DNA of 43,977 bases from Opitutus sp. GAS368. Its GTDB lineage: Bacteria; Verrucomicrobiota; Verrucomicrobiia; Opitutales; Opitutaceae. Position numbers and translations under genes: made by a program. Below the pieces are notes generated by a model. It ran no database searches, was not told the origin of the DNA, and saw only the letters and a program-made list of their open reading frames with translations. Positions 1,277 to 8,653 of the stretch are shown here, one piece after another (position 1 is the stretch's first letter; each line of letters begins with the position of its first letter). The stretch lies in NCBI GenBank assembly GCA_945859965.1, contig CAMAPG010000003.1, forward strand, positions 1 to 43,977, written 5' to 3'.

Positions 1277-3259
1277 CTAGGCAGCCGGCAGCGGCATGGG
1301 CACGTCCAGCGTGGCGGCAACGGCGCGGAGCAACTCGGCTTCGGCAACGAGAAGCACACCGTCCGCGCTGACCACATGGGCTGCGGCCACCAGCAAACGC
1401 TGTTTGATCGGGCCGCTGCTGGTGGCGAGCTTGTCCAGGGCGGCATCCAGTTGCGGCAGGTCACAGGCCCCGGGGGACAGGAGGGGGATTTTTCCTTCCA
1501 GCAATTTGAGCTGGGCGGCGCCGGCGGAAAAATTCCGCGCCGGATCCTGCCCGGCGTGATGCGCGAGCGCGGAAAGCACGATGGCGATCTCGCCAGCCAC
1601 CGCGTTGAAGGAATAGATCTGGACCACCGTTGCGCCCGGGGCGCGGCCGACGGCCAGCGTGCGCAGGATGATTTTCTGCAGGGCGAATTCAAACGTGGAT
1701 ACATGGCCGTCGATGTGTACCAGTTCATCGAGCGTGGAGAAAAAGGGCTCCAGTGCGGCGGGAGGAAGATTGCGCAACGCGGGTTGGGCCAGCTGGAGCA
1801 GCGGCAGCTTATGAGCGGGTTTGAGTTCCTGCAGGGCCGGCGCCAGGGCGGCGAGGAGGCGCGCGGCGGCATCGCCCGACCGGCTGGCGATGAGTTCGGT
1901 CTGCTGCCGCCGGGTTTCGGGTTCGAGCTCAAGCAGGAGACCGTAAAGGAGCACCGGCGCCTCGTGCGGCGAACGGGCCGCGGTCAGGAGGCGCGGGGGC
2001 ACGGAGGCGAGCAGCGATCCAGCATTAGCCAGTTGCTCGGTCGTCAGGGTGCCGGCGGTGGCCATGACCGTCCCGGCCGCGGGCGCGAAGGGGGCCTTTA
2101 GGTCCGGGCTCGGGCGATTGGAACGACCGGCATCCTGCCCGGAAACAGCCCGGGCAGGGGCCAGTCCGGCGCTGACAAAGGATTCGCGGGTCACATCGAC
2201 CACTTGCGGAGGTTCGATGAACGTGCCGTCGAACTGCGGATCGATCGCGCGGATGCGTTCGGGCAGGGGAGGGTGGGTCGCCCACAGGCCGCCGAACATT
2301 GAGCGAAAACCCTGCGCAAAAAAGAAATGCCCGATCGCGGTGCCCTTCGTTGCCTGGATCGAGGAACCCAGAGCATAGCCGCCGATTTTTCTCAGGGCAC
2401 CGGTCAGGCCTTCGGGATTGCGCGTGAATTGCACAGACGAGGCGTCCGCGAGGAATTCCCGCTGGCGGGACACCGCGGCCTGGATCAGGCGGCCAAAGAA
2501 ATAGCCGACGTAGCCGACAAGCACCAGCGCGAGGCCGCTGACGACCACGAGGGCCACGCCGCCGCCCGAGTTTTTCCCGCGCGGCCGCGAAAAGCGGAGG
2601 CTGTTGAGAATGCCGCGGCCGAGCAGCCCGAGCACGAGGATGCCGAACAGGATCGCGGAGAGCTTCACATTGAGCCGCATGTCCCCGTTGAGGATGTGGC
2701 TGAACTCGTGCCCGATCACGCCCTGCAGTTCGTCGCGCGTGAGCTTCTCCAGCGTGCCGCGCGTGACCGCCACCACGGCGTCGCTGGTGGTGAGCCCGGC
2801 GGCGAATGCGTTGATCCCCGGCTCGTCGTCGAGCACGTACACGGTTGGCATGCCCACGCCCGAGGCGATGGCCATTTCCTCCACCACGTTCAACAGGCGG
2901 CGTTCCTGCAGGTCGGTGGTGTGCGACTCGATCCGGCGGCCGCCCACACTTTCGGCGACCGCGCCTCCGCCGGTGCGGAACTGCGTCCACTTATAGAACG
3001 AGGCCAGACCGACGACGGCCAGGGTGAGGACGGAAACCGTCGCGAAAACCTGGGGTTGCCACAAGGGCCGCTCGCCGGCGAATGCAGTGCTCTCCGTTTC
3101 ATAACCGCGATAGCGCGGGTTCCGGTCGGGCGCCTGGCCGAGCACAAAAATCGCGGCGAAATAGCCGGCGAGAATCGTGCCGCCGACCGCGAACGCAAAG
3201 AGCACGACAAGACGGCGGGTCCGCTGCTTGGCGCGTTCCTGGGCCTCGAAGAAGTCCAT
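1277..3259 (-). CDS. M48 family (HtpX-like) membrane zinc metallopeptidase with long C-terminal extension
   Basis: VIGHEFSHILNGDMRLN carries the HExxH-type motif, with multiple TM segments; paired with lemA. Start MDFFEAQERAKQRTRR chosen at 3259; the upstream in-frame start at 3325 lies inside an inverted repeat. Confidence 0.88.
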   Translation of the reverse strand: MDFFEAQERAKQRTRRLVVLFAFAVGGTILAGYFAAIFVLGQAPDRNPRYRGYETESTAFAGERPLWQPQVFATVSVLTLAVVGLASFYKWTQFRTGGGAVAESVGGRRIESHTTDLQERRLLNVVEEMAIASGVGMPTVYVLDDEPGINAFAAGLTTSDAVVAVTRGTLEKLTRDELQGVIGHEFSHILNGDMRLNVKLSAILFGILVLGLLGRGILNSLRFSRPRGKNSGGGVALVVVSGLALVLVGYVGYFFGRLIQAAVSRQREFLADASSVQFTRNPEGLTGALRKIGGYALGSSIQATKGTAIGHFFFAQGFRSMFGGLWATHPPLPERIRAIDPQFDGTFIEPPQVVDVTRESFVSAGLAPARAVSGQDAGRSNRPSPDLKAPFAPAAGTVMATAGTLTTEQLANAGSLLASVPPRLLTAARSPHEAPVLLYGLLLELEPETRRQQTELIASRSGDAAARLLAALAPALQELKPAHKLPLLQLAQPALRNLPPAALEPFFSTLDELVHIDGHVSTFEFALQKIILRTLAVGRAPGATVVQIYSFNAVAGEIAIVLSALAHHAGQDPARNFSAGAAQLKLLEGKIPLLSPGACDLPQLDAALDKLATSSGPIKQRLLVAAAHVVSADGVLLVAEAELLRAVAATLDVPMPLPAA

Positions 3260-3272
3260 GGTGGTCGTACTC

Positions 3273-3355
3273 CTGTCATTCTGACGCAGCGCAGAATCCA
3301 GTGCGACTCTGCCGCGCGAATTCAACCGGATTCTTAGCCGGGCTCAGAATGACAG
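3273..3355. repeat. Short MITE/REP-like element with perfect 12-bp terminal inverted repeats
   Basis: CTGTCATTCTGA (3273-3284) and TCAGAATGACAG (3344-3355) are perfect reverse complements flanking about 60 bp; internal CAGAATCC / GGATTCTTAG also pair partly. Confidence 0.65.
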
Positions 3356-3363
3356 TCTTGGCT

Positions 3364-3966
3364 TCAGCTGAACTGGACCTTCGGTGCGGCGCGTTCGGCC
3401 GCATCGTCGATCTGGAACAGCTGGGCCTCGGTGAAGCCAAACATCCCGGCGAAAATCACGTTGGGAAACGTCTCCCGCGTGGTGTTGTAAGTCATGACAC
3501 TGTCGTTGTAGGCCTGCCGCGCGAAGGAGATCTTGTTTTCGGTCGTGGTCAGCTCCTCGGTGAGCTGCATCATGTTCTGATTGGCCTTCAGGTCCGGGTA
3601 TTGTTCGGACACGACCATCAGCCGGCCCAGTGCACCGGTCAGGCCGGTTTCGGCGGACAACAGGTTTTTGACGGCCCCGGCGTCGGCGGGATTGGCGGCG
3701 GCGGTTTGGGAAGCGGCGAGGGCGATGTTGCGGGCCTTGATCACGGCCTCGAGCGTCTCGCGTTCGTGCTTCAGGTAGCCCTTGGCGGTTTCGACGAGAT
3801 TGGGAATCAGGTCATAACGGCGCTTCAGCTGCACATCGATCTGGGCAAACGCGTTTTTGAAGCGATTGCGCAGGCCGACGAGCGCGTTGTAGATCCCCAC
3901 AATCCAGAAGGCGAGGATGACAAAAACCAGCAGCAGGACTCCGAGAACGATCAAGATGGGACTCAT
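3364..3966 (-). CDS. LemA family protein
   Basis: N-terminal TM then GIYNALVGLRNRFKNAFAQIDVQLKRRYDLIPNLVETAKGYLKHERETLEAVIKAR, typical of LemA. Confidence 0.93.
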   Translation of the reverse strand: MSPILIVLGVLLLVFVILAFWIVGIYNALVGLRNRFKNAFAQIDVQLKRRYDLIPNLVETAKGYLKHERETLEAVIKARNIALAASQTAAANPADAGAVKNLLSAETGLTGALGRLMVVSEQYPDLKANQNMMQLTEELTTTENKISFARQAYNDSVMTYNTTRETFPNVIFAGMFGFTEAQLFQIDDAAERAAPKVQFS

Positions 3967-4085
3967 GGTAAGGATTGGTTCGTTGAGCCGCTGAATGTGA
4001 ACACGGAAACGATGGGCGCGAGACGGAACTCTTTACAACGCGATTGATTGTTTCCAGCGGTCGAACCAACGTAAGGCCGCTCGCA

Positions 4086-6737
4086 ATGGTTTCAAAAATT
4101 TTCGTTTTCCCGCTGCTGCTGGTCTCACTCATGCCGTTGCTGGCCCAGGAGCCGCTCAGCCCGCCGGGACCCTTCGTGACGGCCAAGGAGCTGATGCCGC
4201 CGGCCGGAAACTGGCTGGAGCGCCTCAACGCCGCCCGGAGCGCACAAGATGCGGGCCTGCCGTCCATTGCCGTGGGGCTCTATCGCGAAGTGCTGGCGGC
4301 GCCACCTGGCGCGGGCGGAGATCGCACCCAAATCACCCTGGCGCTGGTTTCCGCGCTGCTGGATGATGGAGATGTTGCCGGTGCCGGGCAAGTGCTGCAG
4401 GGTTTTGTCGGGCTGCGGGGCAGCGCCTGGCATTTGCGCGCTGGTTTGATTGCGGCGCATCTGAAGAAAATGGAAGAGGCCAAGGCGGAGCTGTTGGCGG
4501 TGCGACGCGAGGATCTCGCTCCCCAAGATGCGGGCTGGCTGTCCTTCCTGCAGGGCATGGTCGCCGACGCGGCGGGTGAAATCACCAAAGCCCGCGACGC
4601 GTATGTGCGGGCGGAAGGCGAAGCGGTGTCCTCCCTGCAACGCGCGCGCTTTTTGCTCGCGCGGGAGTATGTGCAGTTGCGGCTGGGTTCCTTCTCGGCG
4701 GCGGACGTGGATTCGGCCCGCAAGAACGCGGAAAAATTCCAGGGGCAAAAAATCGGCTACACTTTTTCCCGGCAATACGCGGTGGTGCTCGACGCCACGG
4801 GCCGGCGGAGCGAGGCGGTCGCCGCGTTGCAGCGGCAGCTGTTTGCGCTGCCGGCGGAGGAACGCGGCGTGAACGATGATTTCCGCCTGCTGCTCGGAAT
4901 CATGGCCGGTGCGGGGGAGGACGGCGTGGGCCGCAACGCCCTGAGCCAGTTGCTCGCGCACGGCAGCGATCCGGTGAAGCAACGGATCGCCCTGCAGTTG
5001 CTCGCGAACGCCTCCCTGCGCGGCCCGGCGTCGGCCCGGGCTGATTTCCGGAGAAAACTGGACGGGCTTATTTCGGCTTCGCCGGCCCATCCGATCCTCG
5101 AGGATCTGCTGCTGTTTCGTGCGCAGGTGGCGCTCATCGAAAAAAATTCCGGCAGTTATCTCCAGGCTGAGACGGATGCGAAAACGCTCCTGGAGAAATT
5201 TCCCGGCTCCCAGCTCAAGGCGCACGCCAACGGCATCCTGACGAGCGTGGCGTGGGAACAGCATCGTTATCGCACCGCCGCCGACTATGCCCAGCGGGCG
5301 CGGACCAGCCTCCCGCCCGGCCAGGCGCATGCCGAACTCGGGGTGCTGATCGCCGAGGCCTGGTACCGTTACGGGGATTATCGCAGTGCAGCCGATGCCT
5401 ATGGCGCGGCTCTGGCCGAGCGTCCGGACGGGGTGAAAGCCGGCGTGCTCATGTTTCAACGCGTGCTGGCCGAAATCGAGGCGGCCCGGAGCGATCCTGC
5501 CCAGGAGGCGGAGCGTTTGCTCGCGGTCCAGGGGTTGCTGGACACGCTGGCCCGCGACTCGGGCTTCGATGTCGAAAACCGCTGGCAGGCCGAATGGAAT
5601 TTGGCGCGCGCGTTGCAAGTCGCCCACCAAACCGGTGCGGCGTATGCGCGGGTCAACAAACTGCTGGCGTCGTCGTCCGGCGCAACGAACTTGCCGGAAT
5701 TGAAATTGCGCGTGCGCATGGCCTGGTTGCAGGCGCAATTGTCGCGCGATGCCAAATTGCCGGAGCAAACCCTGAAACTGGCGGAGGCATTGCTCGGCAC
5801 CCTGGGCTCCAATGCGACTGCCGGTCTCGAGGCCGATTTGCGCACGGAGTTGGCGAGCACGACGATCCTGCTGCGGGCGCAGGCGAACTTTGACCTCGGG
5901 CGCGAAGCCGCGGCGATTGACGTGCTGGAAAAACTACGGACGGATTATCCCAACAGTCTCGCGGCCATTTATTCGTTTATTGTGGCAGCCGATTACTACG
6001 GGGAGAAGGACCGGACCGATGAAGCCCAGAAGCTCCTCGCCACCCTGGCGGACAAATTTCCGGACAGCAGCTATGCCCCGCTGGCCCTTTATCAGGCGGC
6101 TTTGCTCGACGAACGCCGGGGCCAGGACACCAATGCGAACAACCGGCTTGAGCAACTCGTCACGCGTTATCCCGCCAGCGATCTCGTGTTCACGGCGAGA
6201 CTCAAGCAGGGCGACTTGTTGCGGAAGCTCAACCGCTTCCCGCTGGCCGAGCAAACCTACGACGACATTATCCGGAAATTTCCGCGGCATCAGGGGGTGC
6301 TGGCGGCCAAACTCGCCTTGGCGGATTGTCACAGCGCGCAAGTGGCCGTGGACCCCGCCCATGCCGACCGGGCGCGCGAACTGTATGAAGGGCTGCTGGC
6401 GTGGCCGGATGCCTCGGTCGACTTGCGGGTGGAAGCGGGCGTCAAGCTGGGTGAAAATTATGTCACCCGCGGCAACCTCATGCGGGCGGAGCAGGTCTGG
6501 TGGAGCGATGTGGTCGACGCGTTTTTACTCAAGCCGGCGAATGCGGCGAAATTGAATGCGACCGGCCGCTTCTGGATGTCGCGGGCATTGTTGCGGCTCG
6601 GCGATCTTCGCGAACAGCAGGCCAAGCTCGAAGAGGCCAAGCAGGCTTGGTCGTTGATTCTGAAAATGACGCTGCCCGGGGAAACCGTGGCGAAATCGAA
6701 GCTGGCCCGTTTCAAGCCGGCGGAGGCCAAACCGTGA
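4086..6737 (+). CDS. Secreted/periplasmic TPR-repeat protein (YbgF/BamD-like tetratricopeptide architecture)
   Basis: Signal peptide MVSKIFVFPLLLVSLMPLLAQ; many TPR-like helices (DRTDEAQKLLATLADKFPDSSYAPLALYQAALLDERRG, RFPLAEQTYDDIIRKFPRHQGVLAAKLALADCH). The ORF-track start 4044 is 14 codons upstream. Confidence 0.8.
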   Translation: MVSKIFVFPLLLVSLMPLLAQEPLSPPGPFVTAKELMPPAGNWLERLNAARSAQDAGLPSIAVGLYREVLAAPPGAGGDRTQITLALVSALLDDGDVAGAGQVLQGFVGLRGSAWHLRAGLIAAHLKKMEEAKAELLAVRREDLAPQDAGWLSFLQGMVADAAGEITKARDAYVRAEGEAVSSLQRARFLLAREYVQLRLGSFSAADVDSARKNAEKFQGQKIGYTFSRQYAVVLDATGRRSEAVAALQRQLFALPAEERGVNDDFRLLLGIMAGAGEDGVGRNALSQLLAHGSDPVKQRIALQLLANASLRGPASARADFRRKLDGLISASPAHPILEDLLLFRAQVALIEKNSGSYLQAETDAKTLLEKFPGSQLKAHANGILTSVAWEQHRYRTAADYAQRARTSLPPGQAHAELGVLIAEAWYRYGDYRSAADAYGAALAERPDGVKAGVLMFQRVLAEIEAARSDPAQEAERLLAVQGLLDTLARDSGFDVENRWQAEWNLARALQVAHQTGAAYARVNKLLASSSGATNLPELKLRVRMAWLQAQLSRDAKLPEQTLKLAEALLGTLGSNATAGLEADLRTELASTTILLRAQANFDLGREAAAIDVLEKLRTDYPNSLAAIYSFIVAADYYGEKDRTDEAQKLLATLADKFPDSSYAPLALYQAALLDERRGQDTNANNRLEQLVTRYPASDLVFTARLKQGDLLRKLNRFPLAEQTYDDIIRKFPRHQGVLAAKLALADCHSAQVAVDPAHADRARELYEGLLAWPDASVDLRVEAGVKLGENYVTRGNLMRAEQVWWSDVVDAFLLKPANAAKLNATGRFWMSRALLRLGDLREQQAKLEEAKQAWSLILKMTLPGETVAKSKLARFKPAEAKP

Positions 6738-6802
6738 ACCTGGAAGGCGCGCCCCGTTTCGGATTTACCTCCCGGAGTCCCTGAAGTCTAAATTTCCCCG
6801 CA

Positions 6803-7471
6803 ATGTCTGTTCTCAACGTCAGCCTCTTCGCCAAGGGCGGTCCGATGATGGTGGTGGTGCTCATTCTGGGCGTCCTCTGCCTCCTGCTCACGATCGAGCG
6901 CATTCTCTTTTTGCATCGCGGACAGATTCGTTCCACGGCGTTCATCAACGGCATCAAGAACATCCTCGCGAAGCGCCGCATCGTGGAGGCCCTGACCGTG
7001 TGCGAAGAAACGCCCGGTCCGGTCGCGGCAGTGGTGAAGGCGGCGCTGTTGCACGCGGACGATGACGCTGAAAAAATGCGTTTTTATGTGCAGGAAGCGG
7101 CCGTGGTCGAACTGCCTGCCCTGGAACGGCGGTTGGGCTCGATCGCGGCCATTGCACAGGTGGCGCCGCTGGTCGGACTGCTCGGCACGATCCTCGGCCT
7201 GATCACGACCTTTCTGGCGTTTGAAAAGGATTATGCACCGGCCAGCGTGCTGGCGACCGGCATGTGGCAGGCGCTGCTTTGTTTGGCGGCCAGCCTGATG
7301 CTCGCCATTCCGGCCCATCTGGCGCATCATTTTCTGGCCGGCCGCGTGCGGGCGATCGTGCGCGACGTCGAATGGGCGGGGAATGAGATCATGAAGTACC
7401 TGTTGATCGAATATCGGAGCATTCCCTCGGGAGCGGACGAAGCCGAAGCGGTTCCCGAAAAAAAGCCATGA
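6803..7471 (+). CDS. MotA/TolQ/ExbB-family protein (noncanonical)
   Basis: APLVGLLGTILGLITTF and GMWQALLCLAASLMLAIPAHLAHH align ungapped with ExbB/TolQ TM2/TM3 signatures. Confidence 0.85.
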   Translation: MSVLNVSLFAKGGPMMVVVLILGVLCLLLTIERILFLHRGQIRSTAFINGIKNILAKRRIVEALTVCEETPGPVAAVVKAALLHADDDAEKMRFYVQEAAVVELPALERRLGSIAAIAQVAPLVGLLGTILGLITTFLAFEKDYAPASVLATGMWQALLCLAASLMLAIPAHLAHHFLAGRVRAIVRDVEWAGNEIMKYLLIEYRSIPSGADEAEAVPEKKP

Positions 7472-7914
7472 TCACGCGCCCGCTCGACCTCGCCTCGAAA
7501 TTGCGGCCGGAGCCCCGGAATTTCGATTTTCTGTTTCTGGTGAATGGCGGGCTGATCGTGCTTTTCTTCACGTTGTTCGGCTCGCCCTTCGTGCTCGCTC
7601 CGGGTTTGGGGATGAATTTCAAGATGCCGGAAATGCGTGGGGCGGGGCAGGGGGCTGTCGCGACCACCGATGTGATCAGCATCAAGCAGGGAGGGGTCAT
7701 TGTCACCGAAAGCGGGAATATCACCCTGCCCCAGTTGCGCGACTGGCTGAAGGTGCGGGCGAAGGCTTCAAAGCATCCTCTATTATTGGTCCGGGCGCAC
7801 GCGCAGATGCCGTTGGAAGACATCGCGGAAATCCAGGCTGCCGCCAAAGAGGCGGGTTATGCCGGTATCGTCCTCGGTGCCGAAGAACCTTCAGCGGTAC
7901 GGGGAGGACGGTAG
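7468..7914 (+). CDS. ExbD/TolR-like protein (noncanonical)
   Basis: Single N-terminal TM (FLVNGGLIVLFFTLFGSPF) plus ExbD-like periplasmic domain (VTESGNITLPQLRDWLKVRAKASKHPLLLVRAHAQMPLEDIAEIQAAAKEAGYAGIVLGAEEP); overlaps the exbB-like stop by 4 nt. Confidence 0.75.
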   Translation: MITRPLDLASKLRPEPRNFDFLFLVNGGLIVLFFTLFGSPFVLAPGLGMNFKMPEMRGAGQGAVATTDVISIKQGGVIVTESGNITLPQLRDWLKVRAKASKHPLLLVRAHAQMPLEDIAEIQAAAKEAGYAGIVLGAEEPSAVRGGR

Positions 7915-7915
7915 C

Positions 7916-8653
7916 GTGAAACGGGTCGTGGATGGTGCTGGGCGGATTTGGGTGGTTGCTGGAGTGATTACCTTGGTCGCTTTCCTGCTGGTAGTTGCGC
8001 TTTTTAGGACTCCCCCTGTCTCTTCAAAACCGGTCAGGCCGACCCTGACACCGACCCAAGTCGAACTGACCCAGCTGGGAAAGGAAGGGGACAAGCTTTT
8101 GCGCGAGCAGGCCGATCTTTATGATCCGACCCCGCTTTTCCTGCCGACCGAATGGAATGCCCGGCCGAATGACCTGCCGGTCAATGCGGTGCGAGGCCCC
8201 AGCGATGCTTTTCAGGGGTTTGCTTCCAAACCCACATTTAAGGAGGATTCCGCCCGCCTGACTTTCCCCGCGCCGATTGAGGTTCCGGCCAAGCCGGTCG
8301 ATGCCTTGGCGGTTGGACCACCCGAAATGCCATTTGCAGGTATGGGACGAAGCGATCGGGCGTTGCCGCTATTGTCTCCCCGCAACGCTTTTATGGAGGT
8401 GGCGGCCGCCGGCACTGGAAAACTGGCCATCGCGCTGGCCCTGCAGGATTTTCGCCTCCCGGCGGAAACCGATTGGTCGCCGCTGGAGTTTCTCGTGGCG
8501 GTCGATCGCGCCGGATTGGTGGGGTCGCCGCGGCTTACGGCCAGCTCCGGCGTGGAGCAGGTCGACCTCTACTGCGGCAAATATCTGGTCAATGAACTGC
8601 AGCTGGGCGGTCGACTTGAACCCGGATTTTATCGAATCAAGATTGGGCCGTAG
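7916..8653 (+). CDS. Single-TM protein, possibly divergent TonB-like
   Basis: GTG start just after the exbD-like stop (ggggaggacggtagcGTG); TM segment IWVVAGVITLVAFLLVVALF, then proline-rich region; C-terminus FLVAVDRAGLVGSPRLTASSGVEQVDLYCGKYL...PGFYRIKIGP loosely resembles a TonB C-terminal fold. Confidence 0.55.
   Translation: MKRVVDGAGRIWVVAGVITLVAFLLVVALFRTPPVSSKPVRPTLTPTQVELTQLGKEGDKLLREQADLYDPTPLFLPTEWNARPNDLPVNAVRGPSDAFQGFASKPTFKEDSARLTFPAPIEVPAKPVDALAVGPPEMPFAGMGRSDRALPLLSPRNAFMEVAAAGTGKLAIALALQDFRLPAETDWSPLEFLVAVDRAGLVGSPRLTASSGVEQVDLYCGKYLVNELQLGGRLEPGFYRIKIGP

Follow-up and report, generated by a model that had tools for sequence, protein, structure and literature searches.

The ExbB/ExbD-like pair encoded in the window (the whole stretch of DNA analyzed here, 43,977 nucleotides of Opitutus sp. 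GAS368) lacks the transpore-helix aspartate, which is regarded as essential to MotB, TolR, and ExbD and as their defining residue, and across Verrucomicrobiota the loss of this aspartate is evolutionarily coupled to loss of the hydroxyl at ExbB Thr181. From a parsimony estimate, the aspartate has been lost about 20 times in the phylum. On the sequence evidence set out below, we think it rather probable that the pair belongs to the MotA/TolQ/ExbB–ExbD/TolR 5:2 stator family and to a phylum-wide envelope cluster, and that it has lost canonical ion coupling while being retained under selection as a stator-like scaffold. The features on which this reading draws are the following:

4044..6737, + strand: large periplasmic TPR protein of at most 897 aa, first gene of the cluster (TPR_6, E = 2.6e-18; YbgF/BamD-like TPR matches)
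6803..7471, + strand: ExbB/TolQ-like pentamer subunit, 222 aa (Pfam MotA_ExbB, PF01618, E = 2.6e-23)
7187..7189, + strand: ExbB-like Thr129, equivalent to E. coli ExbB Thr148, kept
7268..7270, + strand: ExbB-like Gln156, equivalent to E. coli ExbB Glu176, a variable site uncoupled from the loss of Asp
7280..7285, + strand: ExbB-like Cys160-Leu161, equivalent to E. coli ExbB Ala180-Thr181
7468..7914, + strand: ExbD/TolR-like subunit, 148 aa, with a TM helix at about residues 21-37 and a periplasmic domain of ExbD fold (Pfam ExbD, PF02472)
7525..7527, + strand: ExbD-like Asp20 (NFDF), position −6 relative to the lost Asp; an ancestral polar position and no relocated proton site
7543..7545, + strand: ExbD-like Asn26, equivalent to E. 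coli ExbD Asp25 (TolR Asp23, MotB Asp32) by profile alignment to solved ExbD
7859..8653, + strand: single-TM protein, likely start GTG 7916 directly after the ExbD stop (AlphaFold, Foldseek, synteny)

The TPR protein, the ExbB-like protein, the ExbD-like protein, and the single-TM protein form a four-gene cluster on the + strand (4044-8653), 3′ of which lie tuf, nusG, and ribosomal protein and RNA polymerase genes. The TPR reading frame opens at TTG 4044, with the likely start at ATG 4089 followed by a signal-peptide-like stretch. Both the gene order and the position of the cluster next to tuf-secE-nusG are conserved: a TPR homologue lies directly 5′ of ExbB in 126 of 128 Opitutaceae loci, EF-Tu lies 3′ of the cluster in 65 of the 66 Opitutaceae loci of sufficient length, and single-TM homologues occupy the equivalent place in 142 of 200 loci examined. 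Among non-Opitutaceae loci, a search with one sequence found the TPR neighbor in 46 of 69. Upstream on the − strand (1277-3966), genes for an M48-type metallopeptidase (HEFSH motif) and a LemA-like protein were identified by eye.

The two reading frames that the initial annotation had called an ExbB/ExbD-like pair (6803-7471 and 7468-7914) are indeed present and match the corresponding Pfam families, with the ExbB-like protein scoring 82.6 bits against PF01618 (curated cut-off 22.9) and the ExbD-like protein 30.9 bits against PF02472 (cut-off 25.4). At the level of NCBIfam equivalogs, the model closest to the ExbB-like protein was TolQ (65.3 against a cut-off of 221), followed by ExbB (40.4 against 206.2), neither cut-off being reached, and no TolR or ExbD equivalog was listed for the ExbD-like protein. 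An AlphaFold model of the latter contains a helix at residues 21-37 and a periplasmic domain that matches TolR/ExbD structures (Foldseek probability 1.00).

We determined the identity of the putative proton-path residues from profile alignments. When a profile built from 40 ExbD orthologues was aligned to solved ExbD (E = 8.5e-16), Asn26 fell opposite Asp25 in a gap-free region, and a misregister in ExbD was rejected on this basis. The ExbD-like protein of the window thus has asparagine where ExbD and TolR have the transpore-helix aspartate. Residues of the ExbB-like protein were placed by HMMER against solved ExbB/TolQ chains from the PDB and by a multiple alignment with E. coli ExbB and TolQ. 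These alignments reproduced the initial hand alignment at Gln156, Leu161, Thr129, and Asn26 without a register shift, including the claim that the Thr of LLGT is the Thr148 equivalent. The pore threonine pair (ExbB Thr148 and Thr181) is therefore incomplete in the window, with Thr148 kept and Thr181 replaced by Leu, and the hydroxyl pair found in Asp-bearing relatives is gone at Cys160-Leu161. Within Opitutaceae, only this genome has Leu at the Thr181 position; its relatives mostly carry Thr and otherwise Ala, Val, Ser, Phe, or Met. Adjoining the relaxed Thr181 site, ExbB position 164 (7292-7294) is Gly or Ala in every Asp-bearing member, and Ser is common there in the Opitutaceae Asn group.

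The initial annotation had counted three classical proton-path residues as replaced. Replacement stands for Asp25 and Thr181 but not as a third classical loss for Glu176, which does not appear among the shared key proton residues Asp25, Thr148, and Thr181 (PMC12965293), and Thr148 is kept.

We next consider how widely the cluster and the loss of Asp are spread. ExbB-like matches were found in 55 of 57 genomes in a first survey, and a search of 289 Verrucomicrobiota genomes gave ExbB orthologues in 228 (E<=1e-30), orthology at the scale of the phylum being judged from the single best hit and in part from synteny. Once loci with identical ExbB had been collapsed, 115 Opitutaceae loci remained, of which 104 have Asn at the ExbD site (encoded by both AAC and AAT), 3 have Ser, and 8 have Asp. 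Asp is kept in one group of 8 Opitutaceae and predominates in most other families of the order. Orthologues with canonical residues, which the initial annotation had named as evidence against its reading, therefore exist in part, and its proposed check of whether Q, L, and N are conserved gives a positive answer for the nearly fixed Asn of Opitutaceae but not for the private Leu161 or the variable position 176. Across the phylum, 257 scored loci divide into 86 with Asp and 171 with another residue (N, S, G, A, T, C, L, or V). Parsimony requires 27-28 changes at this site, of which 19-21 are losses of Asp and 7-8 are apparent regains that fall where branch support is modest; the trees rest on one protein of about 200 columns and have modest support overall. 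One clade from other orders of the class (loci L155-L163 without L160; 8 members, SH-aLRT 100) has replaced the ExbD Asp by Ser, Cys, Ala, or Gly, and its ExbB frequently has Arg or Lys where E. coli has Glu176. At locus L091, ExbD is split over two overlapping frames (about 5109-5400), probably by an assembly frameshift.

Canonical paralogues in the same genomes have kept the residue. Each of 12 genomes searched (that of the window and 11 relatives from its family or order) contains several ExbDs, and the canonical ExbD paralogues carry Asp in 36 of 36 distinct sequences. The search for further canonical copies proposed in the initial annotation yielded a separate exbB-exbD-exbD-tonB locus in the window's genome, which has three other ExbDs, all with Asp.

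To learn which residues are lost together, we compared ExbB between loci with and without the ExbD aspartate. Every one of the 86 Asp-bearing loci has Thr or Ser at both 180 and 181; of the 171 Asp-less loci, 126 have Thr or Ser at 181. On the tree, no gain or loss of Thr/Ser at 181 falls on an Asp branch, against 26 on branches without Asp (P about 3e-8), and outside Opitutaceae the corresponding counts were 0 and 10 (P about 9e-5). We used change counts per branch class because the independent pairs (starred branches) were too few for a sign test to decide. The Thr181 result was repeated with a tree built without TM3, outside Opitutaceae, and in a fresh set of 80 loci outside Opitutaceae for which the prediction had been written beforehand. 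In this fresh set, 37 of 37 Asp-bearing loci had Thr or Ser at 181 vs 31 of 39 Asp-less loci (P = 0.005, Fisher's test, which treats related sequences as independent, the branch-class counts on a FastTree topology of modest support being the better measure). Position 180 is coupled likewise, with 37 of 37 Asp-bearing vs 18 of 39 Asp-less loci in the fresh set. Within Opitutaceae alone, a single loss of Asp leaves the comparison with too little power.

Glu176 behaves differently from Thr181. It is highly variable phylum-wide, is often Gln beside an Asp-bearing ExbD, and is uncoupled from Asp (Glu in 6 of 37 Asp-bearing vs 5 of 39 Asp-less loci of the fresh set), which rules it out as part of a matched loss. 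For example, a second exbBD pair in the window's genome (contig C50, L003/L035) has Leu at ExbB 176 and keeps Thr148, Thr181, and the ExbD Asp. Thr148 is likewise uncoupled, being Thr or Ser in 254 of the 257 loci with a scored ExbD and hence in nearly all of both groups. The matched loss in both partners suggested by the initial annotation thus holds for Asp25 with Thr181 but not for Glu176. Selection for hydroxyls at ExbB 180/181 is relaxed only where Asp is gone, while gene content, synteny, and the Thr148 ring persist. The coupled loss of the ExbD Asp and the ExbB Thr181 hydroxyl also supports the proposal that this homologue has left the canonical proton path.

A substitute proton site was sought around the lost aspartate and in ExbB. 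Of 171 Asp-less ExbDs, 160 contain no Asp or Glu between positions −4 and +16 relative to the site, and 32 are free of acids over the wider span −8 to +20. Relocation to the NFDF aspartate, raised in the initial annotation, is unlikely. Position −6 is ancestral: it is Asn or Glu in the canonical members of the standard ExbD motif examined, many Asp-bearing relatives have the NFDF aspartate too, and some members of the Asn group have exchanged it for another residue. We rejected Asp20 as the moved site on these grounds, together with the absence of detectable coupling on the tree and the many Asp-less members without it. ExbB His172, three turns below Thr181 and present in 97 of 107 members of the Opitutaceae Asn group, was rejected as well, as it shows no detectable coupling on the tree and other Asp-less lineages mostly have Tyr there.

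How, then, might the pair work? The ExbD(D25N) mutant is reported to be inactive (PMC11658791), and MotB D22N mimics the protonated state (PMC9389320). The ExbB ring and the ExbD dimer would still assemble, while Asn at the Asp25 position, which in MotB mimics a permanently protonated Asp, would block proton binding and release, such that the complex would not turn. Judging from the neighboring genes, a static inner-membrane scaffold of this kind might provide a periplasm-spanning tether for the TPR protein and the single-TM partner, and other lineages with the equivalent cluster would keep the motor version. We infer that the Asp-less complexes are not proton-driven in the known way and yet are retained, which suggests natural "engines without fuel line" kept for another purpose. 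The broader proposal, that a Verrucomicrobiota stator repeatedly became a "pseudo-motor" by losing Asp and the Thr ring together some 20 independent times while being kept for a structural or regulatory job, we regard as evenly balanced. Three observations weigh against parts of these readings: the near-invariant Thr148 could mean that some pore function remains, the relaxation at Thr181 could reflect repacking against Asn instead of lost conduction, and the apparent regains of Asp are odd if the loss is irreversible.

A continued drive by another route, whether through a different ion, a water wire of Asn, Gln, and Thr, or a titratable side chain supplied by another helix or by the single-TM partner, would fit the kept fold and Thr148 ring and the frequency of His172 in the Opitutaceae Asn group. 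We nonetheless consider it unlikely, given that His172 lacks detectable coupling and gives way to Tyr elsewhere, that acids are scarce around the ExbD site and Thr181 is relaxed, that the hydrophobic segments of the single-TM partner hold almost no acid, and that E. coli D25N is inactive (PMC11658791). Alternatively, Asp could be supplied in trans, with ExbB working with a canonical ExbD from another locus or in mixed dimers; every genome searched has the additional ExbDs that this would take. ExbB Thr181, however, follows the state of the ExbD encoded in cis, and 270 of the 271 fetched stretches contain no second ExbD, the exception being two overlapping-frame hits that resemble a frameshift, so that supply in trans appears improbable.

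Faster divergence of ExbD and the single-TM partner than of ExbB in the alignments is what ordinary drift in a decaying system, with genes heading to loss, would produce. This explanation is very hard to reconcile with genes that are intact in almost all Opitutaceae, an ExbB that is mostly 60-83% identical across genera, preserved synteny, and an Asn retained with both of its codons. Least credible of all is a misalignment concealing a conserved acid at the pore in another register: the Pfam score of the ExbD-like protein is modest, but the profile is gap-free at the site and the Asp-bearing orthologues align column by column. The reading that we favor remains a stator-like scaffold without canonical ion coupling.

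Compared with known systems, the cluster resembles TolQ-TolR(-TolA, CpoB/YbgF) of Tol-Pal in grouping a channel subunit, a protein of ExbD/TolR fold, a single-TM partner, and a periplasmic TPR protein, and in the best score of its ExbB-like protein being with the TolQ model; unlike Tol-Pal, its pair falls below every equivalog cut-off and has lost the equivalents of TolR Asp23 and TolQ Thr178. TolB_N was absent from the window's genome (84% complete) and was found in 1 of 13 Opitutaceae searched; since it is missing in most of these, one may speculate that the cluster fills part of the Tol-Pal role, canonical Tol-Pal seeming absent. With ExbB-ExbD-TonB the cluster shares its folds and a single-TM tail weakly matching the TonB C-terminal domain; it differs in lacking Asp25 and Thr181 and in lying apart from the canonical exbB-exbD-exbD-tonB locus. 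The vWA-type force-transducer clusters of the PVC group also place a TPR gene before tolQ-like and tolR-like genes in Verrucomicrobiota, but carry two tolR-like genes and a vWA protein (PMC12204202); a second vWA type, which has a transpore helix, is reported to retain Asp (PMC12204202). Finally, the substitution is that of the MotB D22N and ExbD D25N laboratory mutants, except that here it is natural, is fixed across most of Opitutaceae, and is accompanied by an altered partner Thr ring.

In the open-access papers found, a natural group of Asp-less ExbD/TolR homologues was undescribed. Such a group provides natural evidence on the proton path, in that Asp25 and Thr181 co-evolve and Glu176 does not, and a large natural series that keeps or loses Asp, with a partner residue tracking it, offers matched pairs for testing the ring without ion flow. 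It also cautions against labeling such loci "proton channel family" transport genes. If the pseudo-motor proposal is true, a motor family has a selected non-energized function, comparable to pseudo-enzymes.

The single-TM protein has no Pfam family and no Pfam TonB hit, and a PDB sequence search gave no significant TonB match. AlphaFold predicts a C-terminal alpha/beta domain at about residues 177-263 (pLDDT mostly >90), for which Foldseek returned a weak match to the TonB C-terminal domain (probability 0.75, E = 0.87, rmsd 1.6 over 41 columns), and a profile–profile comparison of the protein with TonB fell short of significance (P = 0.054). The modeled domain thus bears a weak resemblance to the TonB/TolA C-terminal domain and is a candidate for a new TonB/TolA-like family.
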